Shown here: positions 6,687-62,100 of the stretch, in pieces
Layout of the letters: every line of letters begins with the position of its first letter
How positions within the stretch are numbered: position 1 is the stretch's first letter
The notes under the pieces: generated by a model
What the model saw: only the letters and a program-made list of their open reading frames with translations
The model's database searches: none
Told to the model about the DNA's origin: nothing
Position numbers and translations under genes: made by a program
Assembly (NCBI GenBank): GCA_938092005.1
Contig: CALKOU010000015.1
Coordinates: 1 to 64,000, forward strand
Length of the DNA stretch: 64,000 nt
Direction: 5' to 3'
From: an uncultured Flavobacteriaceae bacterium
GTDB lineage: Bacteria > Bacteroidota > Bacteroidia > Flavobacteriales > Flavobacteriaceae

Positions 6687-7211
6687 TTACAGGTATAAAT
6701 CAACTAATCCAGGAGGCGTTTCAACCAAAATCATTTTTGTATCTCGATTAACCTGTATGATAATGTCATCAACAATAGGGATCAAAACCGTTTTATCTCC
6801 GGCAGAAACTTCAAACGTGGCTTGAGCAGTATGCTCATTGACCTTTGTTATGGTACCAATTACACCTAGATTCTTATCGGATACGGTAAATCCAATAACT
6901 TCATGATAATAAAAGGCGTTACCAGTGAGCTTTGGAAGTTTGGTAAGCGGTAAATACGCTTTTGATTTGACAATACGATCAGCGTCTTCCTCGCTATTCA
7001 CGTCTTCAAGTCGTAGTCTTAACAGACCAGGCTTGTGCATGACGCACTTTTCTAGGAAATATGGAATGAGTCCGTTGTGATGTTCTAGAAATAAACTGTC
7101 GAGAGATTGATATAACGCTGGCTCATCGGTATCAAGCTTTAGGAGTACTTCCCCTTTAAAACTGTATTTACCAACTACTGTTCCAAGAAAAAAACAGTCC
7201 TCGAAGCGCAT
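6687..7211 (-). CDS. rimM: Ribosome maturation factor RimM
   Basis: 174 residues with the two RimM parts: an N-terminal beta-barrel beginning FFLGTVVGKYSFKGEVLLKL (residues 7-26) and a C-terminal PRC-barrel around AFYYHEVIGFTVSD (about 100-113) ending in ETPPGLVDLYL. RimM binds ribosomal protein S19 and helps mature the head of the 30S subunit. It lies 3 bases after rpsP, the classical arrangement. Here the trmD and rplS genes that often follow in other phyla are absent; instead a TonB-dependent receptor begins on the very next base. Confidence 0.93.
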   Translation of the reverse strand: MRFEDCFFLGTVVGKYSFKGEVLLKLDTDEPALYQSLDSLFLEHHNGLIPYFLEKCVMHKPGLLRLRLEDVNSEEDADRIVKSKAYLPLTKLPKLTGNAFYYHEVIGFTVSDKNLGVIGTITKVNEHTAQATFEVSAGDKTVLIPIVDDIIIQVNRDTKMILVETPPGLVDLYL

Positions 7212-42256: not shown

Positions 42257-44728
42257 ATGTCCAAGAATCTAGTTATCGTAGAGTCACCTGCAAAAGCTAA
42301 AACCATTGAAAAGTTTTTGGGTGAAAAGTTTAAAGTGGTTTCTAGTTATGGACACATTTCCGACCTTCCTGCTAAGGAGTTAGGGGTAGATGTGGAAGGC
42401 GACTTTAGTCCCAATTATATTGTAAATGACGACAAGAAGAAGGTTGTCAAAGAGCTTCGTTCGTTGGCTAAGAAAGCAGAAACGGTTTGGTTAGCGAGTG
42501 ATGAAGACCGAGAGGGTGAGGCTATTGCTTGGCATTTGGCTGAGCAACTTAATTTAGAAAAACAACATACCAAGCGTATCGTTTTTCATGAAATCACAAA
42601 AGGCGCGATTCAAAATGCCATTCAACATCCTAGAGCCATAAATCAACACTTGGTTGATGCGCAACAAGCACGTCGTGTGTTGGATCGTTTAGTAGGATAT
42701 GAACTTTCTCCCATTTTATGGCGCAAAGTAAAGGGAGGATTGTCTGCTGGACGCGTGCAATCGGTTTCGGTTCGCATTATTGTTGAACGCGAACGTGAAA
42801 TAGAAGCGTTTACTCCCAAAGCCGCTTACAAAATTCAAGCGTTGTTCACCACAACAAGTGGAAAAGTCATAAAGGCAACTTCCGCTGCAACATATGAAAC
42901 AGAAGCCGAGGCAAATGCTTTTCTATCACAAAATATGGGTGCTGCATTTTCGGTGTCACAATTGGAAAAAAAGCCAGCATCAAAATCTCCAACAGCTCCC
43001 TTTACAACTTCTACACTCCAACAAGAAGCCTCTCGCAAACTTGGTTTTTCGGTAAGTAGAACCATGTCAAACGCTCAACGTTTGTACGAAGCGGGTTCCA
43101 TTACCTACATGAGAACAGACAGTGTAAACCTTTCGAAGCAAGCACTTGATGAGGCTAGGGAAACGATCACGGATTCGTATGGCTCAAACTATGCAAAAAC
43201 ACGGGTGTTCAAAACCAAAAATAAAGGGGCACAAGAAGCGCACGAAGCCATACGACCCACCAAACTATCGCGAATGCATGTTAATGCTGCACCAGATGAA
43301 CAGCGTTTATATGAATTGATTTGGAAACGAACTATAGCTTCTCAAATGAGCGATGCCAAGTTGGAGCGTACAGTAGTTCAAATTAATGCAGATAAACACG
43401 ACAAAAAGTTTACGGCTCGTGGGGAGGTAATTACATTTGATGGTTTTCTTAAAGTGTATTTAGAAGGAAAAGATGATGAAGAGGACACAGAAGAAGGTTT
43501 GTTGCCAAAAGTAACAGAGGGCGAATCGTTAAACGTTAAGTCCATTACTGCTACTGAAAGATTTACAAGACCACCTGCACGATTTACAGAAGCTTCACTT
43601 GTAAAACGACTAGAAGAATTAGGTATTGGTCGCCCCTCCACATATGCGCCAACAATTACGACAATCATCAATCGTAAGTATGTTGAAAAAGGAACGGTTG
43701 AGGGCACCGAACGAAAGTACACACAGTTAGTTCTTAACCAAGGTGAAGTTAAGAAACACGAACTAAGTGAGCGCATAGGTTCTGAAAAAGGTAAGCTAGT
43801 CCCAACAGATGTAGGAATGCTGGTAAACGATTTTTTAGTTAAGAATTTCTCACGTGTTGTGGATTATAATTTCACAGCAAAAGTGGAGCGGGATTTTGAT
43901 TCCATTGCACTAGGTAATGAAGATTGGAAAAGCATGATGAAATCATTTTACAGTGATTTCCATCCTGTTGTTGAAGACGTACGTGAAAATGCACAACGTG
44001 AAATTGGGGAGCGTGTTTTAGGCGTTGATCCGAAAACAGGTCGACAGTTGAGTGTACGATTGGGTAAGTTTGGTGCTATGGCACAAATCGGTACAGCCGA
44101 TGAAGAGGAAAAACCGTTGTTTGCAAGTTTGCATCCAGATCAACAATTAACAAAAATTACGTTTGAAGAAGCATTAGATCTATTTAAACTTCCATTGAAC
44201 TTAGGTGAATTTGATTCCGAAGCTGTTGAAGTGAACAACGGACGTTATGGACCTTATGTGCGTCATGGCAAATCATTTATTTCACTTCCAAAGGGCAAAA
44301 ACCCCTTAACGACAACCTTTGACGAAGCCGTTGAACTCATTCGTCAAAAACGAATTGCAGATGCGCCCATTGCTACTTATGAGGAGTTGCCTGTGACCAA
44401 AGGTGTTGGCCGATTTGGTCCCTTTATAAAATGGAATGGCTGGTTTATTAACGTATCAAAAAAGTATGATTATGACAACTTATCTGAAGAAGATATCGTT
44501 CAACTCATAGAGGATAAAAAAGAAAAAGAAGCTGCTCGGGTTGTTCATCATTGGGAAGATGAAGGTGTTCGCGTAGAAAAGGCTCGTTGGGGACGCCACA
44601 ACATTATTAAGGGCAAACAAAAAGTAGAACTGTCTAAAGATATAGATGTTTCAAAAATGACCCTTACCCAAGCCATGGCTTATTTAGAGAAACAAAAGCC
44701 AAAGAAAAAGCGTACCAAAAAGAAATAA
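42257..44728 (+). CDS. topA: DNA topoisomerase I (type IA)
   Basis: 823 residues. The N-terminal TOPRIM domain has LVIVESPAKAKTIEKFLG and the acidic ASDEDREGEAIAWHL; the active-site tyrosine is Tyr284 in SITYMRTDS. In place of the C-terminal zinc fingers of E. coli TopA, the last 230 residues hold three or four Topo-C repeats (GVDPKTGRQLSVRLGKFG, VNNGRYGPYVRHGKSF, GVGRFGPFIKWN, KARWGRHNIIKGK) and a Lys-rich tail. It relaxes negative supercoils. The next gene starts one base after the stop, on a GTG codon. Confidence 0.97.
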   Translation: MSKNLVIVESPAKAKTIEKFLGEKFKVVSSYGHISDLPAKELGVDVEGDFSPNYIVNDDKKKVVKELRSLAKKAETVWLASDEDREGEAIAWHLAEQLNLEKQHTKRIVFHEITKGAIQNAIQHPRAINQHLVDAQQARRVLDRLVGYELSPILWRKVKGGLSAGRVQSVSVRIIVEREREIEAFTPKAAYKIQALFTTTSGKVIKATSAATYETEAEANAFLSQNMGAAFSVSQLEKKPASKSPTAPFTTSTLQQEASRKLGFSVSRTMSNAQRLYEAGSITYMRTDSVNLSKQALDEARETITDSYGSNYAKTRVFKTKNKGAQEAHEAIRPTKLSRMHVNAAPDEQRLYELIWKRTIASQMSDAKLERTVVQINADKHDKKFTARGEVITFDGFLKVYLEGKDDEEDTEEGLLPKVTEGESLNVKSITATERFTRPPARFTEASLVKRLEELGIGRPSTYAPTITTIINRKYVEKGTVEGTERKYTQLVLNQGEVKKHELSERIGSEKGKLVPTDVGMLVNDFLVKNFSRVVDYNFTAKVERDFDSIALGNEDWKSMMKSFYSDFHPVVEDVRENAQREIGERVLGVDPKTGRQLSVRLGKFGAMAQIGTADEEEKPLFASLHPDQQLTKITFEEALDLFKLPLNLGEFDSEAVEVNNGRYGPYVRHGKSFISLPKGKNPLTTTFDEAVELIRQKRIADAPIATYEELPVTKGVGRFGPFIKWNGWFINVSKKYDYDNLSEEDIVQLIEDKKEKEAARVVHHWEDEGVRVEKARWGRHNIIKGKQKVELSKDIDVSKMTLTQAMAYLEKQKPKKKRTKKK

Positions 44729-44729: not shown

Positions 44730-45866
44730 GTGGATTTTGATTTTTTAAGCCCCATTGACGACCGACTTTTAGCACATAATTTAATGTTGCCAGAGCAAGT
44801 GATTGGCAGGAATCTTCGCATTCATACACAACAAGAGGGTATCCCTGATATAACAGATGTACGTATTGCTATTATCAGCATTGAGCCACGCTTGGCAAAA
44901 GGAACGCCTTTGCATTTGCGTTTTCGTCAACATTTTTATCAGTTGTTTTCTGGAAACTGGGATTTTGTGTGCGCTGATTTGGGTGTGCTGCATGTTGGCG
45001 AACAACAAAAAGACACCTTATTTGCCATACAATCCTTAGTGAAGGAGTTGTATCAACGTAATATCCTTACCATTGTAGTTGGAGGTGAGCAAGAAAATAC
45101 CCTTGGCATGTTTAGAGGTTTAAGTAATATGGACACCTATGTTAACATGTCCTCCATAGATGCTCGATTTGATTTCGGTGAGCCAGGTATGTTGGTTTCT
45201 GATGACAGCTATATGTCAAAAATTATTACCGAAAAACCAAATAATCTAAAACAGTTTACAAACCTTGGTTATCAGTCTTATTACGTGTCACAGGAGGAAT
45301 TGGATTTGATACAAAAGCTCTTTTTCGACGCGTATAGGCTAGGGGATATTACAGCTGATATACATGAGGCAGAACCTATCCTTCGTGACACAGACATTCT
45401 TTCTGTTGACATAAATTCGGTTAAGGCTAGTGAATTAAATACGCCAAAAGGTTTGCCAAATGGATTTGACGGCGCGCAAATTTGTGCATTGATGCGCTAT
45501 GCTGGGCTGAGTGATAGATTAAGTGTTTTAGGCGTTTTTGATATTCCTGAAAGCGAACGAACAGATCAATTACTCGCCCAAATGATTTGGTATGTGCTGG
45601 AGGGATATTGCCACAGAGTGAACGAATTTCCTTTTTCTACACACGAAGTTTGTACTAAATTTGTAGTTCCTCAAGATCATCAGGATTTAGTTTTTTTCCG
45701 AAGTGAAAAAAGTCAAAGGTGGTGGATTGAGGTTCCTAAAGAAGGAAAATATAATAATAATGAACAAACTACGTTATTACCATGTGCTGAAAAAGACTAT
45801 CGCCTGGCACAAAAAGGAGAAATTCCTGGACGTTGGTGGAAATCAGTGCAACGAAATATGCATTAA
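44730..45866 (+). CDS. Ureohydrolase (arginase/formiminoglutamase)-fold protein, probably without enzyme activity
   Basis: 378 residues from a GTG codon one base after topA. The order of strands and motifs is that of the arginase/agmatinase/formimidoylglutamase fold, but the manganese-binding positions are changed: GGDH is GGEQ (Gln121), DAHxD is DARFD (Arg146 for His, with Asp144 and Asp148 kept), and SxDxD is SVDIN (Asp227 kept, Asn229 for Asp). Three of six usual ligands are lost, so catalysis is unlikely. It lies 55 bases before gldK, and I recall a similar neighbour in other flavobacteria, which suggests a kept non-enzymatic role. If the GTG start is wrong, a later ATG at residue 19 or 20 is possible. 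Confidence 0.8.
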   Translation: MDFDFLSPIDDRLLAHNLMLPEQVIGRNLRIHTQQEGIPDITDVRIAIISIEPRLAKGTPLHLRFRQHFYQLFSGNWDFVCADLGVLHVGEQQKDTLFAIQSLVKELYQRNILTIVVGGEQENTLGMFRGLSNMDTYVNMSSIDARFDFGEPGMLVSDDSYMSKIITEKPNNLKQFTNLGYQSYYVSQEELDLIQKLFFDAYRLGDITADIHEAEPILRDTDILSVDINSVKASELNTPKGLPNGFDGAQICALMRYAGLSDRLSVLGVFDIPESERTDQLLAQMIWYVLEGYCHRVNEFPFSTHEVCTKFVVPQDHQDLVFFRSEKSQRWWIEVPKEGKYNNNEQTTLLPCAEKDYRLAQKGEIPGRWWKSVQRNMH

Positions 45867-45886
45867 ATTCCATATTTTTGGGAATT
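45866..45886 (+). promoter_or_regulatory. Promoter-like -7 element inside an inverted repeat, upstream of gldK
   Basis: TATTTTTG (45873-45880) matches TAnnTTTG and is framed by AATTCC (45866-45871) and GGAATT (45881-45886). It lies 42 bases before the gldK ATG. The repeat could be an operator over the promoter. No -33 element is evident. Confidence 0.4.
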
Positions 45887-45921
45887 ACTAAATGTAATTT
45901 AGGTATCTAATAAAAGATTGA

Positions 45922-47379
45922 ATGAAGAACAACGTACTGTTTTTATTGTTATCGTTCTTAGCCATAGTGAGCTGTGGTAAAAGTAATCAAGGTGAACTTG
46001 TTGGTGCAAAAAAAGAAAAGTTCTACCCTCTCAAGCCACATGGTATGGCTTTAGTTCCTGGCGGTTCCTTTATTATGGGGTCATCAGACGAAGATATTTT
46101 GGGATCGAACGACAATCCAACGCAAACGGTGAGTTTACGCTCTTTTTGGATGGATGAAACAGAAATCACAAATGCCGAGTACAAACAATTTGTGGAGTGG
46201 GTCAAAGACTCCATAATACGTACAGAGCTCGCAAAAAAGGCAGTTGAGGTTGGCGGTTACTTTGAAATGTCTGAATTTCCAACCACTGATGATGAGATTG
46301 AAGAAACCCCTATTCTAGCTTATTTACCTCTTTATGACATGGACGCCCTTGAAGAACAAGATGATGAGGATAAAAGCGGTTACCAACTTTATTTAGAGGA
46401 AAATTTTTCTGATTACCTATCGAAGTACTTCGATACTGAAGATGCTTCTGATGCTGTTTATCACTATCACTTACCCTTAAATCGTGACGTAGATATCATT
46501 ACAGAAAGGGAAGCGTATCCAGATGCTGAGTACGCTCGAGTCATGGAAGAAAAAATTTATTTACCAGAAACCGAATGGTTTACAGGAGTTCCTGTCATGG
46601 ACGTGAAACTGTTAAAGTACCGCTTTGCAAGTGTTGACTTAGTTGATGCTGTTGAAAATCCTGATAGTTCTCGTTCAAGCTTCACACGCTATGAGGCTCA
46701 TGAAATATATCCAGACACGACCGTTTGGATTAAGGATTTTAAATATAGCTATAACGAGCCCATGCATAACGATTATTTCTGGCATCAGGCATATGCAAGT
46801 TATCCTGTAGTTGGAATTTCTTGGAACCAAGCAAGGGCATTTGCTCACTGGCGAACCAAAATTAGAAATGATTATTTACGTAGCAGAAAAAAGCGAAAAT
46901 CTACTGTAGGTCGCTTTAGACTTCCTACCGAAGCGGAATGGGAATATGCTGCTCGTGGTGGTATAGAATCTGGGATTTACCCATGGGGCGGACCCTACCT
47001 CACAGATGATCGTGGCTGCTTTATGGCTAACTTTAAGCCAAAACGAGGAGATTATGTGTCTGACCAGTCTTTGTATACTGTAGAAGCAGATTCTTATGAG
47101 TCAAACGACTTTGGATTGTATAATATGGCAGGTAATGTTTCGGAATGGACGTATTCTACCTATACAAAATCTGCATATAATTTTATGACGTCTGTTAATC
47201 CTAATTACGAAAACTTCCCTGATGATCAAAAGGTTGTCCGTGGAGGTTCATGGAAAGATGTGGCATATTATTTGCGCGTTGCCTCAAGAGATTATGAATA
47301 TGCCGATAGCGCCCGAAGTTATTTAGGCTTCCGTTTGGTACGTGATTACTTAGGCACAAACGATTTACAACAACAATAA
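45922..47379 (+). CDS. gldK: Gliding motility / type IX secretion lipoprotein GldK
   Basis: 485 residues. Lipoprotein signal MKNNVLFLLLSFLAIVSCGK (Cys18) followed by a formylglycine-generating-enzyme (FGE-sulfatase) fold: GMALVPGGSFIMGSS, WMDETEITNAEYKQFVEW, and near the end FRLPTEAEWEYAARGG, NVSEWTYST and VRGGSWKD with SYLGFRLVRD. GldK/PorK forms the periplasmic ring with GldN around the outer-membrane translocon. About 150 residues between the two parts are a Bacteroidota-specific insertion. It is first of gldKLMN, with gldL 5 bases downstream. Confidence 0.95.
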   Translation: MKNNVLFLLLSFLAIVSCGKSNQGELVGAKKEKFYPLKPHGMALVPGGSFIMGSSDEDILGSNDNPTQTVSLRSFWMDETEITNAEYKQFVEWVKDSIIRTELAKKAVEVGGYFEMSEFPTTDDEIEETPILAYLPLYDMDALEEQDDEDKSGYQLYLEENFSDYLSKYFDTEDASDAVYHYHLPLNRDVDIITEREAYPDAEYARVMEEKIYLPETEWFTGVPVMDVKLLKYRFASVDLVDAVENPDSSRSSFTRYEAHEIYPDTTVWIKDFKYSYNEPMHNDYFWHQAYASYPVVGISWNQARAFAHWRTKIRNDYLRSRKKRKSTVGRFRLPTEAEWEYAARGGIESGIYPWGGPYLTDDRGCFMANFKPKRGDYVSDQSLYTVEADSYESNDFGLYNMAGNVSEWTYSTYTKSAYNFMTSVNPNYENFPDDQKVVRGGSWKDVAYYLRVASRDYEYADSARSYLGFRLVRDYLGTNDLQQQ

Positions 47380-47384: not shown

Positions 47385-47996
47385 ATGAAGAAAAATAAAT
47401 TCCCCATCCCTGAAAACGTATTGGAACTCCTTTTTGGAACAGGTGCATCGGTAGTTATTATCGGAGCGTTAATGAAAATTACCCACTTCAACTCTGAGTT
47501 TATTTCGGGTAACACCATGTTAACCATTGGTCTAGTCACAGAGGCGATTATTTTCCTTATCGCTGGTTTTAGAGGCTATATTACCCTTCGTGAAGACGCA
47601 CCCGCTGCAGCAACGGAAGATGCTACGGATTTAACAGATATTTCGCTAGAAGCAAATGCGCTAAAAGCAGCGTATCAAAAAGCTACTTCACAGCTCGAGA
47701 CGTTAGGCGATAACCTTACAAATGCGGTAAGCGCAACAGGTTCGATAGAAGTACCAGCAGATTTACCTCAAAATATGACGAGCCTTAACAGCAATGTTGC
47801 CCAAACAAATGAAGCACTCGAGCAACTTTCAAAAGCCTATTCCGAAACGAAAGATGCTGTTGCTACTGAACCTAAAGCTCACGGAGCTGTGGTTGACAAC
47901 ATGAACGACCTGCATACTGAGTTAGCTTCTTTAAAACAAACAATAGCAGATTTGAATGCTAAATATGCCGATATTTTAGGCGCAATGAAAAACTAG
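47385..47996 (+). CDS. gldL: Type IX secretion / gliding motor protein GldL
   Basis: 203 residues. Two N-terminal transmembrane helices (about 14-33 and 44-62) with the motor residues seen in other GldL proteins: Lys31 in GALMKITHF and Glu53 in GLVTEAIIF. The rest is a cytoplasmic helical, coiled-coil-rich tail (LEQLSKAYSETKDA; LHTELASLKQTIADLNAKY). GldL rings around GldM helices form the proton-driven rotary motor for secretion and gliding. gldM follows after 2 bases. Confidence 0.94.
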   Translation: MKKNKFPIPENVLELLFGTGASVVIIGALMKITHFNSEFISGNTMLTIGLVTEAIIFLIAGFRGYITLREDAPAAATEDATDLTDISLEANALKAAYQKATSQLETLGDNLTNAVSATGSIEVPADLPQNMTSLNSNVAQTNEALEQLSKAYSETKDAVATEPKAHGAVVDNMNDLHTELASLKQTIADLNAKYADILGAMKN

Positions 47997-47998: not shown

Positions 47999-49708
47999 AT
48001 GGCAGGAGGTAAGTTAGATTCTCGACAAAAAATGATCAATATGATGTACTTGGTATTCATCGCTATGTTAGCGTTGAATATAAGTAAGGAAGTATTGGCT
48101 ACGTTGGGATTAATCAATAGCGATATTGCTGCAGCGACACAAGATTTGGTTGCCGATAGTAATGAAAAATACACCTTGTTTAGCAACAATGCTAACAACG
48201 AATACTATAGAATAGCTGCTCAAAGCACCCCTGAAATACAGATAATTGCAGATGAGTATTTCAATTATATAGATACGCTTAAGCAACGTTTGATGAATAC
48301 CAGTGAAACGGGCTATAAAATGGCACGTGAAGACAAAGAAACTGGTGCAATTGATTCCATCATAGATTACCAAACAATGGACAAATCTCAGTATTTGGAT
48401 GAATTGTTTTTTGCAGGAGATCAATATTCTGAAAATGGGCAAGAGTTTGTCGACCGATTTTCATCGTTTCCAACAAAACTACAAACCGTATTAGATGCCT
48501 TTGTAGCTGCTGATTTAGAAAAAGATCCGCCTACAGAAGACGACCAGGATGGACAATACATTGATTTTGATTTTTCTTTCCTTGGCGAATTGAACAAACG
48601 ATTTGCGTATGCTGAAATGGTATTGAACAGAGATGGTAAGTACCAACCTTACCTCAATTATCATTTTGAAGGATTTCCACTTATTGCGTCGCTTTCCAAA
48701 CTCACAAAAATTCAATCGGATATTCGCTTTATTGAAAATAAGATTTTAGAGTACATCATTAGTGTTATCAATGAACACGAAGGCGGCATAAGTGCCAATA
48801 CCTATCAGACCTTGTTAGAATCGTCAAAGTCTTCTTTTTATACAGGAGACCTCGTTGATGCTTCGGTTGTTATGGGTAAAAAAGATTCCAATTTTGTTCC
48901 TAGCAGAGTAGAACTTTTCCTTAACGACCAACGCATGGTCCAAGGAAGAGACTTTACTATAGAAGGTGGAGGCGTGCAGCTGAATAAGCGATTTGGAGCA
49001 CCTGGTTCGTATAAACTGACTGGAAAATTATTCTTTGAACGTAATAAAGTAGAGCAATCTGTTGACGTTGCACAGGTTATATCTGTAATTGACAAGCCTA
49101 ATGATGCCGTTATCTCTGCAGATCAAATGAAAGTCGTTTATCGAGGTTTGCCCAACGATCTTTCTATTTCGATTCCTGGAATTCCAAACAACAAGCTTAA
49201 TGTACGTGCCGATAACGGAGTTGTTCGTAAAAAAGGCACCAAGTTTGAAGCGATTCCTGACGGAAATAAAGTAGGGAAAAGTATGCGTATCTACGTTTCT
49301 GGAGAAATTAATGGCGCTACCATCAATGCACCAGGACAAGATTTTAGAATCAAACCATTGCCACCAGCTCTAGGTTCTATAGACTTAGGATCACTTGGAA
49401 AATTTGACAGCGGTAGTAGTATTAATGGAGCTTACGTTGATGCTGGTATTATAGCAGCAAAGTTCCCTGAAGACTTTGATTACGACCTAAATGTTGAGGT
49501 TACTTCATTTACCATGGGCGTAGGAAGTAGATCAAGTGTTCGAGTAAACTCAAATAGAATAAACAATAACAACCTATTGGTGTCTTATATTGGCGGTTTA
49601 AATTCAGGAGACCGAATTTTTGTTTTCGATATAGAAGCTAAAGTAAAAACAGGCAATATTGTTTTGGATGGTATAAAAGTTACAGATTTTGCCCTAACAG
49701 TTGAATGA
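47999..49708 (+). CDS. gldM: Type IX secretion / gliding motor protein GldM
   Basis: 569 residues, somewhat longer than the roughly 510-520 I expect for the family; the extra length seems to be in the first periplasmic domain, including the acidic EKDPPTEDDQDGQYIDFDF. One transmembrane helix near the start (MINMMYLVFIAMLALNISKE, residues 11-30) is the motor shaft; four periplasmic domains follow (typical pieces YHFEGFPLIASLSKLTKIQSD, TLLESSKSSFYTGD, MKVVYRGLPNDLSISIPGIP). It transmits proton-motive energy from GldL to the GldKN ring. It overlaps gldN by 4 bases. Confidence 0.94.
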   Translation: MAGGKLDSRQKMINMMYLVFIAMLALNISKEVLATLGLINSDIAAATQDLVADSNEKYTLFSNNANNEYYRIAAQSTPEIQIIADEYFNYIDTLKQRLMNTSETGYKMAREDKETGAIDSIIDYQTMDKSQYLDELFFAGDQYSENGQEFVDRFSSFPTKLQTVLDAFVAADLEKDPPTEDDQDGQYIDFDFSFLGELNKRFAYAEMVLNRDGKYQPYLNYHFEGFPLIASLSKLTKIQSDIRFIENKILEYIISVINEHEGGISANTYQTLLESSKSSFYTGDLVDASVVMGKKDSNFVPSRVELFLNDQRMVQGRDFTIEGGGVQLNKRFGAPGSYKLTGKLFFERNKVEQSVDVAQVISVIDKPNDAVISADQMKVVYRGLPNDLSISIPGIPNNKLNVRADNGVVRKKGTKFEAIPDGNKVGKSMRIYVSGEINGATINAPGQDFRIKPLPPALGSIDLGSLGKFDSGSSINGAYVDAGIIAAKFPEDFDYDLNVEVTSFTMGVGSRSSVRVNSNRINNNNLLVSYIGGLNSGDRIFVFDIEAKVKTGNIVLDGIKVTDFALTVE

Positions 49709-50544
49709 TGAAAAAAGAATTTAAATACTTGATTTTATTAATTGGTTTTACTGGTTTCAGTCAAATCAACTTGCTCAATGCAGACAGACCTGAAGAGATA
49801 GGTGTATTATCAGATGAACAAAAAGACATGTTCAGTGAAAACAAGTATTTAAAATACCCTCATGTTGACGAAAAAGACGTCATGTGGAGTAAGATTGTAT
49901 ATGAAGAAATAGACCTTTCTGAGAAATTTAATCATCCGTTATTTTTTCCTAATGATAATTTATACGAAAGTGAGCGAAGATCACTTTGGCGAACTATTAG
50001 AGAGGCCATCTTAGCGGACCAAATAAAGGTTATTTATTTGGATGACAATTCAAAATTCAGAAAAGTCATGGATATTGAATCCGCTCGGAAAAAGATCATG
50101 AATACTGAAGTGATAAACGGCATTGATAAAAGTGAAGTATTGAGATCTACCGATATATCTTCTTATCGTATCAAAGGCGTTTGGTATGTCGATAAAAGAG
50201 TTAGCGAAATGCGGTACAGACTCCTCGGAATCATGCCGATAGGCAAGGATTTAATTAATAAAAAATCCAAGAAACACGTTCCTCTCTTTTGGTTGTGGTA
50301 TAAAGACTTACGCCCCATACTTCATAAACAACTTGTTTTTGATGATCGGAACAATGCAAGTCGTATATCATTTGATCAATTGCTTACTTCCAGAATGTTT
50401 ACTTCTAGAATTATCGGAATTGACAATGTTTTTGATGACCAGTACGTCGAGGATTATGTAACCGATCCTTTTATGCAACTTATTGAATCCGAACGACTCA
50501 AAAATGTTATTCGCGATTTTGAACAAGACCTTTGGTCTAATTAA
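49705..50544 (+). CDS. gldN: Type IX secretion / gliding protein GldN
   Basis: 279 residues with a signal peptide (KKEFKYLILLIGFTGFSQ). Family segments: KDVMWSKIVYEEIDLSEKFNHP, ERRSLWRTIREAI, YRIKGVWYVDKRVSEMRYRLLGI and KPLFWLWY-like VPLFWLWYKDLRP. GldN/PorN binds GldK to form the periplasmic ring. No gldO paralogue follows, unlike in F. johnsoniae. A strong terminator 7 bases after the stop ends the operon. Start may be 49705 or 49708 (two ATGs in tandem). Confidence 0.95.
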   Translation: MMKKEFKYLILLIGFTGFSQINLLNADRPEEIGVLSDEQKDMFSENKYLKYPHVDEKDVMWSKIVYEEIDLSEKFNHPLFFPNDNLYESERRSLWRTIREAILADQIKVIYLDDNSKFRKVMDIESARKKIMNTEVINGIDKSEVLRSTDISSYRIKGVWYVDKRVSEMRYRLLGIMPIGKDLINKKSKKHVPLFWLWYKDLRPILHKQLVFDDRNNASRISFDQLLTSRMFTSRIIGIDNVFDDQYVEDYVTDPFMQLIESERLKNVIRDFEQDLWSN

Positions 50545-50550
50545 TGAATC

Positions 50551-50575
50551 AAAACCCACAAATGTGGGTTTTTTT
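50551..50575 (+). terminator. Intrinsic terminator of the gldKLMN operon
   Basis: AAAACCCACA and TGTGGGTTTT pair over up to 10 bp with a tight A-rich loop, followed by TTT. The ATG of the next gene (50576) starts right at the end of the T-run. Confidence 0.75.
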
Positions 50576-51613
50576 ATGCAACATGATGTCCTTATTGTTG
50601 GTTTTGGTCTCGCCGGATGGGCGCTTACCGAGATGTTGAAACAAGAAGGTAAGTCGTTTGTTGTTTTTGATTCGCAGAAAGAATCCAGTTCAAGTGTGGC
50701 TACTGGGATTTATAACCCAGTTGTTTTAAAGCGTTTTACTGCTATTAATCGTGCGCAGGAATTAATGGATTACTCCATTCCTTTTTATGCTCGTAATGTT
50801 CATGCCAACCTTCTGCACAACATGCCTATTCATCGTGTGTTTGCTACAGCAGCTGAACAAAACAAATGGGCAGAAGCCTCAGACAAACCAGCTTTACGCG
50901 CCTACCTACATGATGCCGTTTTGGCTAATGCCCTCCCTTATATTAAAGCACCTAACGGTCTTGGAGAAATGCAGCAAACGGGCTGGGTTAACACGATGCA
51001 ACTTTTGACGAATGCACATCAAAGATTAACACAAGACGGTTTTTTTGTCAGCGAAAATTTTGATTATGCTTCGTTGGTCATTAAAGATGATGGTGTTCAG
51101 TATAGGGAATGGCGTGCAACACAAATTATTTTTGCTGAGGGTGTTGGTGTAAAACATAACCCTTGGTTTTCAGAACTTCCAGTTATTCCTAATAAGGGCG
51201 AGTGGTTGGTGGTTTTGTGTAAAGGTCTACAATTGAAGCACATTATTAAAGGGAGTGTTTTTATTGTACCTCTAGGAAATGACACCTATCGTGTAGGTGC
51301 TACTTATGCACGCGTTTTTGAAGATTTAAATCCTACTGCACAAAATAAAGCATGGCTCGTATCGCAATTTAAAAAATACGTATCGCTCCCTTTTGAAGTA
51401 GTGTCACATGGTGCAGGGCTTCGACCAACGGTTACTGATCGTAAGCCCATAATTGGGAAACACCCACAATACCCACAGTTAAGTTGTGTAAATGGCCTAG
51501 GATCTAGAGGCGTTTTGTGGGCTCCATTTCTAGCAAAGCTATTGATTGGACGTGTTTTTGATGACGCTTTTGTGCCAAATGACCTCTGTTTAAGCCGTTT
51601 TATGCCTTCTTAA
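50576..51613 (+). CDS. FAD-dependent oxidoreductase (DAO/MnmC-oxidase-like)
   Basis: 345 residues. N-terminal Rossmann motif VLIVGFGLAGWALTEML (GxGxxG) with the acidic ribose ligand in VVFDSQ. The C-terminal GLRPTVTDRKPIIGKHP and NGLGSRGVLWAPFLAKLL match the D-amino-acid-oxidase family and especially the FAD domain of MnmC, which oxidises carboxymethylaminomethyl groups on tRNA wobble uridine. It may be a stand-alone version of that domain, but an amino-acid or glycine oxidase role is also possible. The ATG at 50576 is preferred because earlier in-frame codons are inside gldN and its terminator. Confidence 0.82.
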   Translation: MQHDVLIVGFGLAGWALTEMLKQEGKSFVVFDSQKESSSSVATGIYNPVVLKRFTAINRAQELMDYSIPFYARNVHANLLHNMPIHRVFATAAEQNKWAEASDKPALRAYLHDAVLANALPYIKAPNGLGEMQQTGWVNTMQLLTNAHQRLTQDGFFVSENFDYASLVIKDDGVQYREWRATQIIFAEGVGVKHNPWFSELPVIPNKGEWLVVLCKGLQLKHIIKGSVFIVPLGNDTYRVGATYARVFEDLNPTAQNKAWLVSQFKKYVSLPFEVVSHGAGLRPTVTDRKPIIGKHPQYPQLSCVNGLGSRGVLWAPFLAKLLIGRVFDDAFVPNDLCLSRFMPS

Positions 51614-52134: not shown

Positions 52135-53151
52135 CTATAAATTATCTGTATTTAGACGTTTGTAGTACCCTCTTCTATTTGATAAAAATCGATCGAAACT
52201 AAATCGTAATCCTATTTCGAAAATAGAAGGAGTATTTGAAGTTTTAGAATCAGATTGAAATGTATAGCTCAAATTAAATAGAAAATTTTCGAAAGCGATT
52301 GTTGATACTAATCCAAGATCCATCGCGCTGTTCTCTTTATACCTTACTAATGATTCAAAAAAACCGATTGAGAAGTTAGAAAGTTGTAGTTCTTGACTGG
52401 AAACAAATCGTGTTGTACCTCCCTGAAGTTGTCCATATAGACTTCCAAAGAAAAAGGTGTTTTCGGGTAATATTCCTCTTCCGTATGGATTTATATCGAG
52501 TTCAAGTGCACTTATAAGTGTTATCGCAATTTCTTTTTTCGTTTGAGTCTCTTTATTGAATGAAATATTGGGCTGATTTAGATGAGCAAGATGTAGTCCA
52601 ATTAAATATTTTTCGCTGTAAATCAGTCCTGAGGCCCCAATTTCAAAATAATTTGTTGATGGTTTTAGTTTTGCTAGTGGATCAATTGAGCTGCCAATAA
52701 TGGTTCCCAGTTGCGCATTTAATTGATCTTGAAAAACAAGTACATCTTGATCAATAATTTGTGAGGTAACCCCAACATCGACCCCACCTATAAAGTACGA
52801 TTCATATCCAACTTTAAAATTATATGCATAACTCAGTCTTAAATTATTTTGTTTTAATCCAAACTGGTTTAAACTAAAAGAATTTACATCTACTCCAATT
52901 GAGAAGTTTAAATCTTGAAAGGCAATATTCCCATATAAATAATTGTTTTCAGCACTAGTGCCTTCACCATAATTAATATTCGAAAAGACCACACCAGCTT
53001 TAGAGTTAAGATTTATCCCGTGAATGTTTGGGTTTATTTTCTGTAGAGCACTTGTGTTGACAGGAAAATCTGATTGTGCATATCCACAAGCAGTACCCAT
53101 CAATAAAACTACTGTAATTCGAATCTGATATTGAAGTAATAATTTCATCAT
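52135..53151 (-). CDS. PorP/SprF-family outer-membrane protein, partner of the giant adhesin
   Basis: 338 residues with a signal peptide (LLLQYQIRITVVLLMGTACGYAQ) and a series of amphipathic beta-strands ending in the barrel-like IFEIGLRFSFDRFLSNRRGYY. The layout (DFPVNTSALQKINPNIHGINLNSKAGV after the signal, alternating strands throughout) fits PorP/SprF proteins, which help single surface adhesins cross or attach to the outer membrane in type IX secretion. In F. johnsoniae sprF lies directly after sprB and is needed for its secretion; here the gene overlaps the giant adhesin stop codon by 4 bases, the same relation. Start at 53151 or the tandem ATG at 53148. Confidence 0.85.
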   Translation of the reverse strand: MMKLLLQYQIRITVVLLMGTACGYAQSDFPVNTSALQKINPNIHGINLNSKAGVVFSNINYGEGTSAENNYLYGNIAFQDLNFSIGVDVNSFSLNQFGLKQNNLRLSYAYNFKVGYESYFIGGVDVGVTSQIIDQDVLVFQDQLNAQLGTIIGSSIDPLAKLKPSTNYFEIGASGLIYSEKYLIGLHLAHLNQPNISFNKETQTKKEIAITLISALELDINPYGRGILPENTFFFGSLYGQLQGGTTRFVSSQELQLSNFSIGFFESLVRYKENSAMDLGLVSTIAFENFLFNLSYTFQSDSKTSNTPSIFEIGLRFSFDRFLSNRRGYYKRLNTDNL

Positions 53152-56100
53152 TTTAATAATAATATAGTTCCAACATCAGTTACAATTTCATCATTTAATC
53201 TTGTCGCAATAATTTTATATACGTAGTAGTTTGAATTAGGGTCTGAGTTAGAGCCATCCCATCCATCAATAACAATTGGCGCGGTTACAACTAAGCCATT
53301 CTCTGACTTGATTTCTTCATAAATCAATACACCAGCTTTATTATACACATAAAAGTTAACTTCTTTGAGGCCAGTAAACTCGGGTCCTATACGATCATTA
53401 ATGCCATCGTTATTAGGTGTAAATGTATTTGGCATTAGTAACGAGTAACCTTTTCCAATAGTTATCTCTTGAACACTCGTTTTGAAACATCCTGAGCTAT
53501 TGTAAGCAGTTAAGGTAACATCATAAGTGCCTTCTGCTTGATATTGATGTGACGTCCGTACGCCAATTTCAATAGGAGAAGCGTCACCAAAGTCCCATTC
53601 TATACGATCGTATGAATTTATTCCTTCAAGGGTAAATGATACTCCTGTACGTTCACTAATTGTACCATAGCTTTCAAACTCGGGACTGGTGTAGTTAAAA
53701 CTTGGATCGTTTACCGAAATATCGAGTAGATCGGAATTGATAACAACACCGCAACCAAACTCATCTTGTATTTCTAAACTAGCACCGTCAACTGGATTTA
53801 AGATGTTTATTCGATAGCGTGTTGCCGCAAAAGTCTCCGAGATGATACTAACATTAATATCGGGCACTCTGTTTGTGTTGTAATAGAAGTATACATTAGC
53901 AGCAGTAGCATTAACGTCTAGATCAATATAACCACTGCTTGAAACACAATAAGAATTACTTACTTCAATATTAGCGTATGTGATTTCGTTTTTAGCGACT
54001 TCAAAAGTTTTTTCAATTTCACAATACTCAATATTTGTTGAGAACTCAACTTCTTTAAGAATAACTTTATATAACCCTTTTTTCAAACCACTGCCATAAC
54101 TACTTCCTCTTAATTCTGAGACTTCCACCCAATTTCCAGAAGAGCAAGAAGTGTCGCCGCCAGTAATAGTTACAGACGATATTGGACTAGTTGTGCTGTC
54201 AAGATCATGATCTAAGTTGTCATTAGAACTAACGGAATTAGGTCGTGCACAAACAAGTAAAATTCCATTAGAAGAGAAGTCATCTATGACTAAACTCAGA
54301 TTCGTGAATTGAGCTGATCCACAATTTTGATAGCTAATACTACTCAATTCATAATTTGGATCAATTGCACCGTCTAGGTCTGTGTCAGCGCTATCCATAA
54401 TTCCGTCATTGTTGCTGTCTACCTTGCCATTATCCGTGATGTTATCGTTATCAATATCTGCATCAACAATATCAAAGATGCCATCATTATCAGCGTCTTT
54501 TAAACGAATTTCGTAAGTAAAACAGCTAGAGCCTTCTTCGAAGTGGTACCATGTTAATTGTTTGTAAAAGTCGGTATTCCCACCTTTAGCCGTTACAGAA
54601 ACGACACCATCATCAACACCGTCACAGCTAACGGGTATAATTTCGTTTGTTACAATTTGTAGCGGATCAGGCTCACGAACCACAAATGTTTCAGAAACAC
54701 TACAGTCAGAGGTCTGTATGGCACTAACGCTTACCGTATATGTACCAGGTAGTAGATTGCTAATAACATTGGAGGTAGTTGTATTACTGTAGTTATTTGG
54801 CCCTGTCCATGAATACAAGTAAGTAATCGAATTATCAGACATTTCAACCTTAATCTCTCCAGTTCTTTCACCATAACACGCAATATTTTTAACCCTGGAT
54901 TTTCCGTTGTCTGGGGTCAAGTTTTCATTGTAATCTGCCTCAGTTTGACTTAAAATACTAAAGTTCGGTTGCACTTCAATCTTAATTGGAATCGCAATAG
55001 TATTCGTACAAACGGCATTGTTAGCTGTTACGTTAAAATTATAGGTGCCTCCAGTAGCAATACTTCCTGTTATTTCTAGTACGTCACCCACTACCTGTGT
55101 TGCTAAACCGGCAGGAAGACTCGAAACAGTTGGTACTGTACTATTCGTAAACTTAAGACTAATCTTGTCAATCGCAGTATCTATACAAACGGCTTGATCA
55201 AGGGTAGCAGACGACCCCGTATTTGTTAGCGCAGGACCTGCAGTAACATTGATAATACCATTTAGCTCTGGGCTATCACACGACGTTTCATTGAAGGCTT
55301 TAATGACGTAGTTGTAAGTTTGATCACTAGTAATATTTTCGGATGGGGTGCCTGTAATGGTAATAATATTTGTAGTTGTATCAATACTATGTGAAACACC
55401 ATTTGGTAAGCCACTCACGGTGTAGTCCCAAAAACCTTCAGTAACTTCATATAGTATGTCATCAATTGCGTCCCCTTCACAAATTATTTGATTCGTTGCG
55501 CCAGAGGCTAAAACATGCTCCAATTGAGAATCGGGTTTTAGCGTAATTTTACCACCAATGGATACGTTGTCACACGAATTACCAGTGGTTTCTACCACGT
55601 AATTTAGCACAGTATCGGTAGTTATATCTTGTATCGATGCTCCGCTAATAATGAGTTGACTACCGCTTATGACCCAATTAAATCCAGTTCCATTTAATCC
55701 CGCTACCTGTGCAGATGTAGCTCCGCCCACAAACTCATAGACAATATCAAACGGTAGCTGAGTTCCTTCGCATATCACCTGTGAGGCTGTTGTAGAACCT
55801 GAGACTAGACGCAATTCATGATTTGCAAAAACCTGTAAGATACCTGTTTGAACTTCAGAAGTGCATCCTGTGGATTGGTTTTTAGCAATAACAGTGTATG
55901 TATATGATGTGTCTGTATTAATATTCTGTGCAGATCCCGAAATAGTAAATAACCCAGTGGCTACATTAAACTGACCACTTACACCATTAGGAACATTGTC
56001 CCAACTTAAACGAACGGCATCAACGTCACTAGAAGCTTCGAAAACAATGTCTGAAATTGCCTCCCCTTCACATAGTTGTTGATTTAGTTGATTGCTAGAA

Positions 56101-59100
56101 GCATGAACGAATAGTTCTGATTTTGGTTCAAACGTTAACGCACCAGAAACAGAAGCCGTTGAACACAGGCCTGAATTAACACTTGTTATGGTATACGTAT
56201 ATACGTTTGAGGAGTTGCTAGCTATATTATAGGAACCTGATATAGTTACACTGTTAGCACCAAAATTAGTAGAAATACCTTGTGGATTTGATCCTATTGC
56301 CACACCATTTTCTTCCCATTGTATGCTTGCGCCTACAGTACCGCCAGCATATTGGTACGTAATTGGTGCAATCGGATCACCCACACAATAAGTACTAAAA
56401 TCAGTTCCTGGCGTACTTATTGAAAATTCGTCTTGCGCATGTACCTGTATATTTCCAACAATTGTTCCAACACAACCACCATTGACCGAAGCGACACTAA
56501 CAATGAAATTATACGAGCTTAAACGCGTCACATTTAATGGTGTTCCAGCAATTTCAACGGTATTGCCAATAGTATTAAAGTAGACTCCTTCAGGAAGGTT
56601 TGTAACGGTTACTGCTGGGTTTGGTGCAACATCAACCAAGTCAAGTGTTATGGTTTGAATTGGAGTTCCCTCACAAGCCACTTGCGATAGTGCTCCGGTA
56701 TTTGTGGCACTAGGTTCTATACGAGGTGTAGGTGTTGTGGTTATCTTACCTGATATACTTTCTTCCTGACATCCACTACCGATTGTTGTAACGGTAAAGT
56801 TGTATTCAGTTGTTGAGCTAATGTCTACAGTTGGGGTACCAGAGAGGGTAACCACACCGCTGCTAACAGAAAGGTTTATCCACGAGAGGTCATCTGCAGT
56901 AGTGCTAGTTAACGTTACGTTAGTTGCATCCCCACCAATGGTAAATAGGATAGGATCAATGGCATCATTCTCACAAAGTGTTTGGTTGATGTTTGATGAG
57001 TCAAGTGTAAGCTCACCGTCAGCATTAACCGTAATTTGCCCATTAACGGCCTCACCTGTACATCCTGTAGTTGTGTTTTCAGGAAGAATACTATATGTGT
57101 ATATGGTTTCCTGTGAAATATTTTGAGATACTCCAGAAATTATAAGGACATCATTTAATGCATCATAATTTATCGTAAAGCCAACAGGTGTTGAACCTGT
57201 CCAATTGAAAGTATAATCGTTAACATTTGATAAGGTGTAACGAATGTCAGAAATTGCATCTCCCTCACAAATAGATTGATCATCATCGCTTCCTGCTTCC
57301 AGACCAATACTTGGAGTAGCTTTTAAGGTTATTTCTCCTGTCTTTATGTCTGTATTTGTACAACCAACTGTTGTCGCTGTTAGTTTATATGTATATGTAG
57401 TGTCTGATGTTATAGTTGCATTAGGTGCGCCATTGATTTCAACGGTTGTAGCGTTTTCAACAAATGATATTCCAGTTGGCGCAGTGGTTAAAACACCACC
57501 AACAAACCACTCAATTGATACATCGTCAGTACCGCCTTTTAGTTCATAAACAACAGGGGTTAAAGACTCATTATAACAAAGTTCTGCTTGGTTTGAACCA
57601 CTAATTAGCGCTAATTCAGGGTCAGCAGAAACATCTATATCTAACACTATTGTATTATCCGAATTAGGACAATCGTTTGAAGCAATAACTGTTAGTTGAA
57701 CGGAAGTGTTTTGATTATACGAGTCAAATGTTACAACAATCCCATCTGTTCCTTGCCCAGAAATAATCGTAGCTCCAGCAGGCGCAATCCAATTGTAGTT
57801 TGTTTCTCCACTTAAACCTGTAAGTGTATATGTTGTTGTGTCTCCTTCACATACTGTATCAGTACCTTGGATTAATCCCGTACCTGTAACATTTTGGTCT
57901 ATTGTAAGTGTCATAGCACTTGTCATGGGTGCAGCTCCACATTCGGATTTAGGCGTTACACTCATGGTTAAGGTTACTTGGTTATTCCCCGACGCAAGAT
58001 CGCCAGCGCTTGGCGTATACTCGGGTGATATTGTATTAGCAAAACGTAGAATTCCAGAACCAGATGTCGACCAGCTTATTGCATCATAACTATTGGCTGT
58101 TACAGTCGCATCATTAACAACATATGGCGATCCATAGCATACACTAGCATCTGCGCCGGCAAATAATTCCACTTCAGGCACAAAAGTTAAGGTAATGCTG
58201 TCTTCGACAGTATTTGAACAACTAGCATCTCCGAAGCCTCTAAGAACTAGCGTTACAAACCCCGCTGTCTTATCCTCTGAAGAGAAGAAATATTGTGTTT
58301 GAACGGCACTAACGTCTGTAAACCCATCTGTACTACCGTCAGCTCGGGACCAACTTACCGCTTGCTGGTTTGTTGCAAAGGCGTCGGATAATGTGAAGCT
58401 TGTTTCTGAACTACACAATAGTGTATCATTTCCTGCAAAAGCATTTACAGTAGGATCTATTGTGAGGGTTATTTCATCATATACGTCTGTGCAATTTCCT
58501 TGACCATACCCAGTCAAACGAAGGTTGACGGACCCATTACTAATATCGTTAGGGCCAGGAGTATAAATTGGATTTAAGTTGGTTGTTGTTTCAGAAAACA
58601 CACCATCTCCACCCGTGTTTGTCCATTCATAGCTTATGGCATTTGCAACAGTCACATTGCTAATTTGGAACGTTTCATTTGCACATATTGCTATTTGATC
58701 TGTTCCAGCGTCTACAATAACTTCATCTACAAAATTTAGAGAAATTTGTTCAACAGTAGGAGTGGTACAAGCACCATTACCGTATGCTGTTAGCGTAAGC
58801 GTGACCCCTTGGTCAATATCATTACCTCCAGGAACATAAACCTGGTTTAATGCAGTGTTAGAAACCTTAAAGCTACCTTGGCCATTGTGACTCCAAATAA
58901 TAGAGCTTTGATCTTGAATAGTTACGCCAGTAATGGGTACTTCAATTTCATTAGAACAATTTGTGAATATGTTCTGACTTAGTGTTATGGTCGGATTCTT
59001 AGTAAGTGTTAGCGTAAGTTTATCATCTACGGTTGTACACCCTAGGCCACCCGTACCCACTAGTGTTAATTCAACGGTTCCGTTCACAATATCAAGCGCA

Positions 59101-62100
59101 CTTGGTGTGTACGTTGGATTCAGCGTCAAGCTATTGTCGAAGCTACCTGTTCCACTTGTTGTCCACTCAATACTTGCTCCGTCTCCTTTAGTCGCGTCAC
59201 TTATAGTATACGTGCTTTCGGTCAAACATATTTCAGCATTTGCGCCCGCATATACTTCAGGAGCAGGAGTGAAAATAACAGCAATTTCATCCGTAGAAAT
59301 GGCGTTGCTACATGCTTTATTGTCTTCGCCAGTTACTTGTACATAAAGTGTAACCCCATCGATTAAATCAGCTCCCTGCGGAAAATATACTGGGTTAAGC
59401 ACCGTATCATCAACAAAAGTACCTTCACCATTCGTAGTCCATTTTAAGGATAAGGGGTCGTAATGTTCACCGCTTACACCTGTTATATTTATTGAAGTAG
59501 CATCGTTACAAAAGATAACACTTGATTCAAGTATGCTTATTTGGGGTAGTGGTTGTATACTGAGTACAATTTCATCTGTGACTGTTGGACAATTGCTGTT
59601 TCCATCGGCACTTAATTTAAGGATTACTTCTCCGTTAGCAATATCTGTAGCAGAAGGAGTATATATAGGATTTGGATCGTTTTCAGTTGGACTAAATGAA
59701 CCGCTTCCGGAAGTACTCCAAGTGATTGATGCAGCATCTGAAATAGTAGCTAAGTCTAAAGGATAAGAATCTCCTGCACAAACAGATGCAGTTGCAGGGC
59801 CTGCGTCAATGCTAACTGCAGTTTCAAAATAAACCGTAATCAAGCTCGTGCTTTGAGTTGCACAAGGCACATTAGGATCGGCGGTCAAAATGATGCTTAC
59901 GAAGCCTTGATCAAGTTCTTGTACCGTTGGGCTGTATACAGGAACTAATGAACTTGTATTATCAGGAGTAAAAGTTCCATTTCCACCAGACCATGCAAAG
60001 CCACTCGCATTGCTTACAACTCCATTTAATGCGATGTCTCCGGCACAAGTGGTAAAGCTTGCACCTGCATCGGCTTGCGGATTTGCCACCAATTCTAATG
60101 TCAAGTTGTCTGAAAGAACACCATTACAAGGAGAAATCTCATCAGCTTCCAGCGTAAATGTGATGATTCCATTTTCACCGTTTGCTGGTGTATACGTTGG
60201 TGTCATGGTGTTTTGACCGCTTGAAATGGTTCCAATTCCGTCATGTGTCCAGCGAATATTTTCAACAGCAGCTACAACAGCTCCATTGTTAAATGTATAT
60301 GGATTGCCTTCACACGTTACCATATCAAGACCTGCATTAACAGCACCACTTGGATTTACAGTCAGCGTCACATCTTTTTGAGCAGTTGCAGCAGTACAAG
60401 CACCTTGTCCAGCTACTGTAGCACGTAGTGTTACACTTCCATTTGTAGCATCATTTGCGCCAGTGGTGTAGACAGGAACCAACTGGTCAGAAAACTGTAA
60501 TGAACCGTCACCATTGATAATCTGCCAATCAATAGTATCATAATTTGTAGCATTGGTTCCTGTAATGGTAAAGGCTCCTTCACAAATATCAAAAGAGGAT
60601 TGAACAGTTAGTTCTGGAAGTGCTGTAATAACAAGGGTAACTTCATCGCTCACGACCGTATCACATGGATTAATTCCCGTTGCTGTGAGGCGAAGCGTAA
60701 CCGTACCGTCAATCAAATCTTGACTTCCTGGAGTATAGATTGTATTAACGCTATTTAGGTTATCAAAGGAACCATCTCCATCAACAGCAGTCCATTGAAT
60801 GTTTTGTCCATTAATTGTCGTTGCATCTGTTAAATCATAAGCCTCACCCACACAAATTTCAGCATCATTACCCGCAAATACTTCAGGAATAGGAGCAAAG
60901 TTAGCAACCATACTATCCGATATGTCAGTACAACCATCAAGCCCAGTAGCAGTAAGCGTTAGCGTTACACTTCCATTAGCGAAATCGCTTGGTGCGGGTT
61001 GGTATTGAGCGTTTAAATCATTAATTGAAGGCACAAAACTTCCTGATCCTGTTGTACTCCATTCATACGCACTTTGATTTGTTACAGCCCCACTGAGGGT
61101 AACAATGTCTCCAACACATAGCTCTTGATCTGTATTTGCATTTGCAGTTGCAGGAGGGTTTATGGTCAATAATAATTCATCTGTGATTACAGCACTACAA
61201 CCATTGTCCGCTTGAGCAGTCAATACTAAACGTATGGTTCCAACTTCATTAGCAGCTGGTGTGTATATGGCCGTTAGGTCATTTGTTGCAGCCACTAGTG
61301 TTCCTGACCCGTCTGGTGTTGACCAGATAAAGTTATTTGAATGAATCACAGCAGCACTAGTTGTCGTAAATGAAGCATCTTGACAAACAGTTGCATCCAC
61401 TCCAGCATCAACAATAGGTGTTGGTGTTAAAGCTATAATAAGTTCATCAGTTGCATCTGCACAACCATTTGTTCCAAACGCACGTAATTCTAGTCTTACT
61501 TCGCCATTAATATAATCCTGCGCTGTTGGGGTGTAGCTTGGTGTTAACGAGGTGTTATTAAGTAGCGTACTACCTCCTGTAATAACACGCCAAGATACGT
61601 TTGCACCCGCGGTAGCAGTTGCATCAGTTATTGTAATTGTTCCATCTGTTTCACATGCGGCAATATCAGCACCTGCATTTACCGTTGGCGCAGCTACAAA
61701 GGTTACACTTTTGGTAAAGGTTTGAGAATCAGTACATGGAGCTTCAGCCTGAACAGTAAGATTAAATTCTACAACACCTATTTCATTTAATGCAGGGGTG
61801 TAAGACGGATTAGCTGTTGTTTCATTTGACAAAACACCTAAGCCAGAGGTTTGCCATAATATACCTGCAACGTTGGTGTAGGTTACATCACTAAATGTTA
61901 CAGTATCATTTTCACAGAATGTTAGATCACTACCAATAATTACTTCTGGATTTTGAGCAAAACTAACAGTAAGGTCATCAATTGATGGATCACAAGAAGC
62001 ATTACCTGTAGCTGTTAGCGTAAGTTTCACAGACCCATTTGCGACATCAGCAGCACTTGGAACATATGTTGGGTTTAAGGTATTGCTTACATTGTTTAGA

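Follow-up and report, generated by a model that had tools for sequence, protein, structure and literature searches.

A probable pseudo-ureohydrolase, widespread in its bacterial class, encoded between topA and gldKLMN in a Flavobacteriaceae bacterium

The window analysed here, a 64,000-nucleotide stretch of DNA from an uncultured Flavobacteriaceae bacterium, carries an ORF (hereafter ARG) between topA and the gldKLMN genes of the type IX secretion system (T9SS) and gliding motor. The source genome is a 1.62 Mb draft, 84% complete, which holds one further arginase-family gene on another contig (178.6 bits). The closest match to ARG in the named genome collection was from a Flavobacteriaceae MAG (81% identity, L103). 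The genes at the locus, with the searches that identified them, are:

42257..44728, + strand: topA, upstream neighbour of ARG (Pfam)
44730..45866, + strand: ARG, putative pseudo-ureohydrolase ORF of 378 codons/amino acids with a GTG start (Pfam and profile searches)
45922..47379, + strand: gldK (NCBIfam TIGR03525, 535 bits, cut-off 350)
47385..47996, + strand: gldL (NCBIfam TIGR03513, 69.1 bits, cut-off 68.3)
47999..49708, + strand: gldM (NCBIfam TIGR03517, 247 bits, cut-off 180)
49705..50544, + strand: gldN (NCBIfam TIGR03523, 199 bits, cut-off 85.9)

A single base (44729) separates the start of ARG from the end of topA (42257-44728), and 55 bases (45867-45921) lie between ARG and gldK, which begins at 45922. 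These coordinates agree with the placement given in a preliminary description of this DNA, and its naming of the downstream genes as gldKLMN also held, all four scoring above their NCBIfam cut-offs. A promoter and terminator scan gave counts like those of shuffled sequences; from 44730 to 45922 the + strand showed nothing resembling a terminator. Beyond the operon, an ORF for an FAD-dependent oxidoreductase (DAO, 90 bits; 50483-51613, +) starts at the end of gldN. Further downstream, a 3591-aa ORF (53148-63923, −) with PKD and CHU_C type IX secretion signal domains in its C-terminal 250 residues is followed by a PorP/SprF gene (52135-53151, −); this pair likely represents a large secreted protein and its T9SS partner.

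The window ARG protein belongs to the ureohydrolase superfamily by its match to Pfam Arginase (PF00491; 29.9 bits, cut-off 22), and its score against NCBIfam hutG (TIGR01227) was 13.4 bits, below the equivalog cut-off of 229. An AlphaFold2 (AF2) model built with 48 homologues (pLDDT 87, pTM 0.88) aligned with Trypanosoma cruzi formiminoglutamase (4myk) over 258 residues (VIA-align, Z 29.9, rmsd 2.2), and a fifth or more of the VIA-align rows covered residues 14-297 of ARG. The model therefore confirms the ureohydrolase fold named in the preliminary description, but the stated extent of 378 residues was too wide, since the fold is limited to residues ~14-297 and residues ~298-378 form an extra module. 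The features of the protein are:

44769..45620, + strand: ureohydrolase-fold core, residues ~14-297 (AF2 model and VIA-align)
45081..45092, + strand: GGEQ, residues 118-121, with Gln at the metal-A His position (H101); Q121 ranks 46 of 372 columns in conservation
45159..45173, + strand: DARFD, residues 144-148, with Arg at the metal-B His position (H126); D144 and D148 kept
45402..45416, + strand: SVDIN, residues 225-229, with Asn at the metal-B Asp position (D234); D227 kept
45621..45863, + strand: C-terminal module, residues ~298-378 (..FYKS..RWW..PC..DY..IP.RWW; family conservation)

The C-terminal module (~80 aa) consists of strands and two helices in the AF2 model. At least three of its four signature residues (W331, W332, C352, Y357) were present in 185/187 family sequences, the exceptions being L102, with two, and a fragment (L192). 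The module was absent from all 12 canonical relatives read (8 from outside the class, 4 in-class paralogues). Its conservation matches that of the core (mean 2.14 versus 2.03 bits), and with 79 of the 372 columns it supplied 6 of the top 8 and 13 of the top 40. Neither Foldseek (best E 0.82) nor a PDB profile search (best E 0.69) gave a confident match to a known fold; the model of the module alone (85 residues; pLDDT 72.5, pTM 0.60) is only moderate, so this missing match shows little. Within the core, four polar residues (Q182, R203, E215, R219) are invariant or nearly so in the family, and HutG has different residues there in the alignment. In the AF2 model Q182 and R203 sit at the C-terminal strand ends, which would be the active-site side of the fold.

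Ligand positions are referred to by what we take to be rat arginase I numbering (H101, H126, D234, D124, D128, D232), and we assume from work on arginase the assignment of ligands to metals A and B, with two of the metal-A aspartates bridging both metals. In the window protein Q121 stands for H101, R146 for H126 and N229 for D234, with D144, D148 and D227 retained; three of the six manganese ligands are replaced, in exactly the three motifs to which the preliminary description had pointed. We then compared these positions across the family. One of 188 distinct rows was dropped (L201, the sole row with six ligands, a separate canonical arginase of genome G036 and not a family member), leaving 187 sequences, 181 complete at all six positions and six incomplete. 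None kept more than four of the six ligands: four were kept in 12 sequences, three in 153, two in 14, one in 6 and none in 2. The preliminary description had held that homologues with intact ligands would speak against its reading, and there were none among the 187. A binuclear ureohydrolase has six metal ligands; the window protein has three, and no census sequence exceeds four. Judged from sequence and model, ARG keeps the fold and has lost the binuclear cluster, as expected of a pseudo-ureohydrolase.

The losses were unevenly distributed over the site. Gln occupied the H101 position in 162 of the 182 rows with a letter there (His in 9, Asn in 6). Asp was kept at D124 in 176, at D128 in 170 and at D232 in 179 sequences, all three together in 164/181 complete rows and none of them in one (L102). 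The H126 position held Arg in 70, Lys in 52 and His in 5 sequences, and the D234 position Ser, Asn, Arg, Thr, Gly or Lys in 177 and Asp in 2. Weighted conservation followed the same division, with D144, D148 and D227 ranking 41, 40 and 31 of 372 columns, and residues 146 and 229 ranking 265 and 256. The ligands of metal B alone are thus lost and their positions unconstrained, and the metal-A aspartates are under selection. The change at H101 by itself says little of a dead site because HutG of Bacillus subtilis has Asn there (GGDN in the alignment); likewise, an N114H variant of the T. cruzi formiminoglutamase appears in a PDB title. The telling losses are the two ligands of metal B alone. Of the 'dead enzyme' proposed earlier, the loss of the metal-B ligands stands throughout the 187 sequences, but inactivity itself is unproven, because the metal-A aspartates are conserved. 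Histone deacetylases, which share this fold, retained the metal-B site, so the ARG family would be the mirror case.

Some members have gone further. In L102 (G028) D124, D128 and D232 are all replaced and the module is still present, with two of its four signature residues. L198 (G170) has lost the metal-A aspartates and retains the module. The matches of L199 and L200 (G096, G130) start after D128, with Asn at D232, and that of L197 (G220) also starts after D128, with both aspartates of the last motif present; all three retain the module. These five sequences lie in families f5, f64 and f75, and such lineages show that the protein can be retained without the aspartates. The L197 gene, when reread (L231, G220, 5954-6817), is a 288-aa frame on the opposite strand, 1.3 kb from gldK, which keeps the C-terminal half and the module and has no recognisable first half.

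These patterns bear directly on the possibility that ARG is an active enzyme of changed substrate that works with metal A only, which we consider unlikely, if the least so of the alternatives. In its favour, all three metal-A aspartates and Gln121 rank within the top 46 of 372 columns by conservation, B. subtilis HutG already has Asn at H101, and the (nearly) invariant polar residues Q182, R203, E215 and R219, two of them (Q182, R203) modelled at C-terminal strand ends, would furnish such a site. However, both ligands of metal B alone are lost at positions now unconstrained, members in f5, f64 and f75 lack the aspartates (L102, L198) and still have the module, and the first half that bears D124 and D128 is unrecognisable in L197, L199 and L200, which kept the module as well.

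We further investigated the occurrence of ARG across genomes, using the kinship labels of the genome collection for class, order and family. The class, whose name was inferred, is presumably Bacteroidia in GTDB; NCBI taxonomy places Flavobacteriaceae under Flavobacteriia. A single-sequence search gave matches in 35/40 genomes (own genome included; one match of just 35 residues). With a profile built from 17 members (A1), matches were found in 235/247 class genomes; the weakest were only partial, and counts at E ≤ 0.001 include such partial matches in f56, f64 and f75. In family f53 there was one strong A1 match per genome (101/101), split over two contigs in one of them. A second profile (A2, 390 model positions) was searched against 158 genomes of the phylum, 39 in the class and 119 outside it. 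In the class, 37/39 genomes scored above 300 bits and the other two 112 and 126 bits (G170, G220). Outside it, 54/119 had some match, the best covering model positions 16-307 of 390 with 161 bits; in none of the 119 did a match extend beyond model position 331. The 12 weaker matches read (8 outside the class, from among the 54 matching genomes, and 4 in-class paralogues) had near-complete ligands, with His at H101 (Asn in L224) and all others kept except for Asn in place of D128 in L218. All 35 A2 members matched Pfam Arginase at E ≤ 0.01 and 34/35 matched NCBIfam hutG at the same threshold (best E 1.2e-32), giving much stronger matches to it than the window protein.

When 46 chosen sequences were placed in a maximum-likelihood tree, a single branch (support 100/99) divided the 32 hand-picked members from the 14 canonical sequences; several branches were long. 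A single origin of the putative pseudo-ureohydrolase family fits this tree and is not proved by it. ARG is under purifying selection: dN/dS was 0.05-0.06 in 2/5 pairs, the two with unsaturated dS (gldK dS was saturated in 5/5 pairs). Together with the wide family matches, these values rule out a chance ORF or a decaying gene. Individual interrupted copies were seen. L015 (G004, same genus) has one in-frame TAG within its matched stretch, either an error or a true truncation. In the single-contig genome G092 (C1:921214-922347) the member was matched in three pieces, one of them with three TAGs, and is either a broken copy or the product of assembly errors.

The neighbourhood of ARG was also conserved. 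In a first sample of 30 loci, including that of the window, topA lay upstream in 29/29 evaluable loci and gldK downstream in 30/30; in G028 the ARG match is on a different contig from gldK. Among 80 named loci, nearly all from Flavobacteriaceae or its genera, topA was upstream in 77/77 and gldK downstream in 76/77 evaluable cases, the exception being Capnocytophaga leadbetteri (L170); the overlapping frames of L176 were read and this locus was counted as linked. In other families a single ORF separated ARG from gldK (18/18 loci), and this was PorP/SprF in 9/9 loci tested. GldM was encoded within 9 kb downstream of ARG in at least 57/86 class genomes with both listed, representing 24/34 families. 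The 57/86 is a lower bound, as 63 of the 149 genomes listed came without a GldM entry and a second-copy GldM was scored as unlinked (G121 and G061 are in fact linked). The order topA-ARG-(porP)-gldKLMN recurs in many families, and this conservation of the neighbourhood is evident both in the 76/77 named loci and in the 9-kb count. Families f26, f30, f53 and f63 showed no linkage to GldM (0/16 genomes; 0/7 evaluable in f53). We also read 40 stretches of 9.7-17 kb around ARG, chosen rather than random (20 apparently unlinked and 20 mostly linked). At 10/20 unlinked loci, from four families, a divergent Epimerase-family gene adjoined ARG (Pfam on 4/10; L064, L066, L067, L070-L075 and L081). The other neighbours there were varied (NqrF-like oxidoreductase, DUF3822, THUMP-like, HHH_3, methylmalonyl-CoA mutase), and the neighbours at these 20 loci gave no clue to ARG function.

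Occurrence of ARG was associated with that of GldM within the class. Of 247 genomes, 233 had both ARG and GldM, 2 ARG only, 6 GldM only and 6 neither (Fisher P = 8e-8, uncorrected for kinship among the genomes and hence too small). The six double-negatives comprise three members of a single family (f46), two genomes with sizes of 0.5 and 1.2 Mb, and G159, which has SprA. The association did not extend to every T9SS genome. Outside the class, 86/119 phylum genomes had SprA and no full-length ARG match was found there. Ten SprA-positive class genomes had no ARG (G032, G035, G036, G056, G137, G159, G193, G217, G238, G251), the lone profile match of G036 being the canonical arginase L201. In G035 (L232, 2234-10194) topA is followed directly by porP-gldK-L-M-N, with nothing between topA and porP. 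G033 has GldK, and neither SprA nor ARG was found in it. ARG is not, on these data, present wherever the T9SS is, as a core component would be. Nor is it lost with the T9SS: G264 and G296 (f53), with no GldM and no SprA match, encode full-length ARG (525 and 568 bits), i.e. it was kept in 2/2 GldM-negative f53 genomes. The absence of SprA in the genus of G264 is weak evidence, because its genus mate G076 (f53, single contig) has GldM above cut-off and no SprA match. G094 also has ARG without GldM or SprA, but its assembly, in about 130 contigs, is 95% complete. The 26 and 35 genomes entered into follow-up searches (for SprA and ARG, respectively) were chosen as exceptions.

The preliminary description had suggested a structural or regulatory role in T9SS or gliding. 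Of this, the recurrent place of ARG before gldK, under selection, stood, and the linkage suggests some functional tie; that it is a needed part is not supported, given the SprA-bearing genomes without ARG. Since T9SS genomes without ARG exist and ARG is kept without GldM, a role in the motor is possible and cannot be essential in general. That ARG is a component of the T9SS/gliding motor, structural or regulatory, for instance by partnering GldL in the cytoplasm or by controlling gldKLMN output, we hold to be decidedly unlikely. In favour of such a role are the association of ARG with GldM in the class, the proximity of GldM in at least 57/86 genomes and 24/34 families, gldK downstream in 76/77 named loci, and the PorP/SprF identity (9/9 tested loci) of the gene that intervenes before gldK elsewhere. 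Against it stand the 119 out-of-class genomes without full-length ARG, 86 of them with SprA, the ten SprA-positive class genomes without ARG and the ARG-free operon of G035, the retention of ARG in G264 and G296 without GldM, and the 16 genomes of f26, f30, f53 and f63 without linkage. It is quite improbable that ARG binds a guanidino-type metabolite or one metal and, through its module, adjusts T9SS/gliding motor expression, assembly or energy use, as a metabolic sensor that joined the operon in this class and in some families was split off afterwards.

The explanation that we favour, with moderate confidence, is that ARG is a class-wide pseudo-ureohydrolase, probably a binding or regulatory protein, that sat ancestrally beside the T9SS operon and is at most accessory to the T9SS. 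Near-universal occurrence, purifying selection, the lack of a complete metal site and a module of its own fit a pseudoenzyme that works by binding. The family would be related to formimidoylglutamase/agmatinase-like enzymes and would no longer hydrolyse a guanidino or formimino substrate, acting instead in the cytoplasm as a binding protein. The old pocket (Q121, D144, D148 and D227 with the family-specific Q182, R203, E215 and R219) may serve in structure or sensing, occupied by one metal ion or a ligand, with the C-terminal module as the possible contact for a partner. The job of ARG would be general in the class, with adjacency to gldK reflecting inherited gene order and possible co-expression. 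Counting against this explanation are the conserved aspartates, which may point to an active one-metal enzyme, the association with GldM, the recurrent gldK linkage and the much stronger hutG matches of other members. Among the publications listed by searches of the open-licence PMC literature, none dealt with this family or with an arginase-like neighbour of gldK. We regard the family as new and class-wide, within the known kind of pseudo-ureohydrolases.

Very improbable, finally, is that ARG is the inactive subunit of a pair whose other half is a catalytically active ureohydrolase paralogue, on the pattern of MetCb and MetCa: that precedent (PMC11271267), the one canonical paralogue in the window genome and a Pfam Arginase match above 150 bits, exceeding the family members listed there, in 66/70 class genomes would support it, but metCa and metCb are adjacent whereas in 40/40 stretches no active paralogue lay beside ARG and neither the family profile nor a 14-sequence canonical profile found a second arginase-family ORF, and the sole Arginase match of G082 is its ARG family member.

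Reading ARG as a class-wide pseudo-ureohydrolase has consequences for annotation. It is matched in 235 of the 247 class genomes, and family models recognise it only as a relative of formimidoylglutamase/agmatinase, chemistry that it very likely does not perform; automated annotation could assign it to histidine degradation. Within the family, metal sites also range from half kept to completely lost, a natural series in which the module outlasts the active site. Moreover, it warns against inferring motor function from operon position, because T9SS genomes without ARG and ARG genomes without a detected T9SS both exist.

Several known systems resemble ARG in part. According to PMC11271267, MetCb is the inactive subunit of metformin hydrolase, which binds and enables an active partner encoded next door; like ARG it is an arginase-family pseudoenzyme whose metal ligands were lost and which was kept, in its case as a protein binder. 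It differs in that metCb and the gene for its active partner are neighbours, whereas ARG has no paralogue in the 40 stretches and carries the C-terminal module. HutG/formiminoglutamase shares the core fold (Z 29.9 over 258 residues) and the metal-A aspartates, and a HutG structure (3m1r, E 2.1e-16) was the best PDB sequence match of the A2 profile. In contrast to HutG, ARG lacks H126 and D234, has the extra C-terminal module and scores 13.4 bits against the cut-off of 229. GldK/PorK, encoded in the same operon as ARG, is likewise an enzyme fold, that of the formylglycine-generating enzyme, used as a ring subunit without the role of the enzyme; GldK is a T9SS component, whereas the ARG family is missing from many T9SS genomes. 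An arginase-like protein of Trypanosoma brucei, reportedly described by Hai in 2015, is said to have no binuclear manganese cluster, and would share with ARG a ureohydrolase fold free of that cluster. Judged from the titles of its PDB mutant entries (S149D/R151H/S153D/S226D), it has Arg at the H126 position, as in ARG, and Ser where the ARG family keeps its aspartates. As far as the available entries go, it is a single protist protein, whereas the ARG family is spread over a bacterial class.
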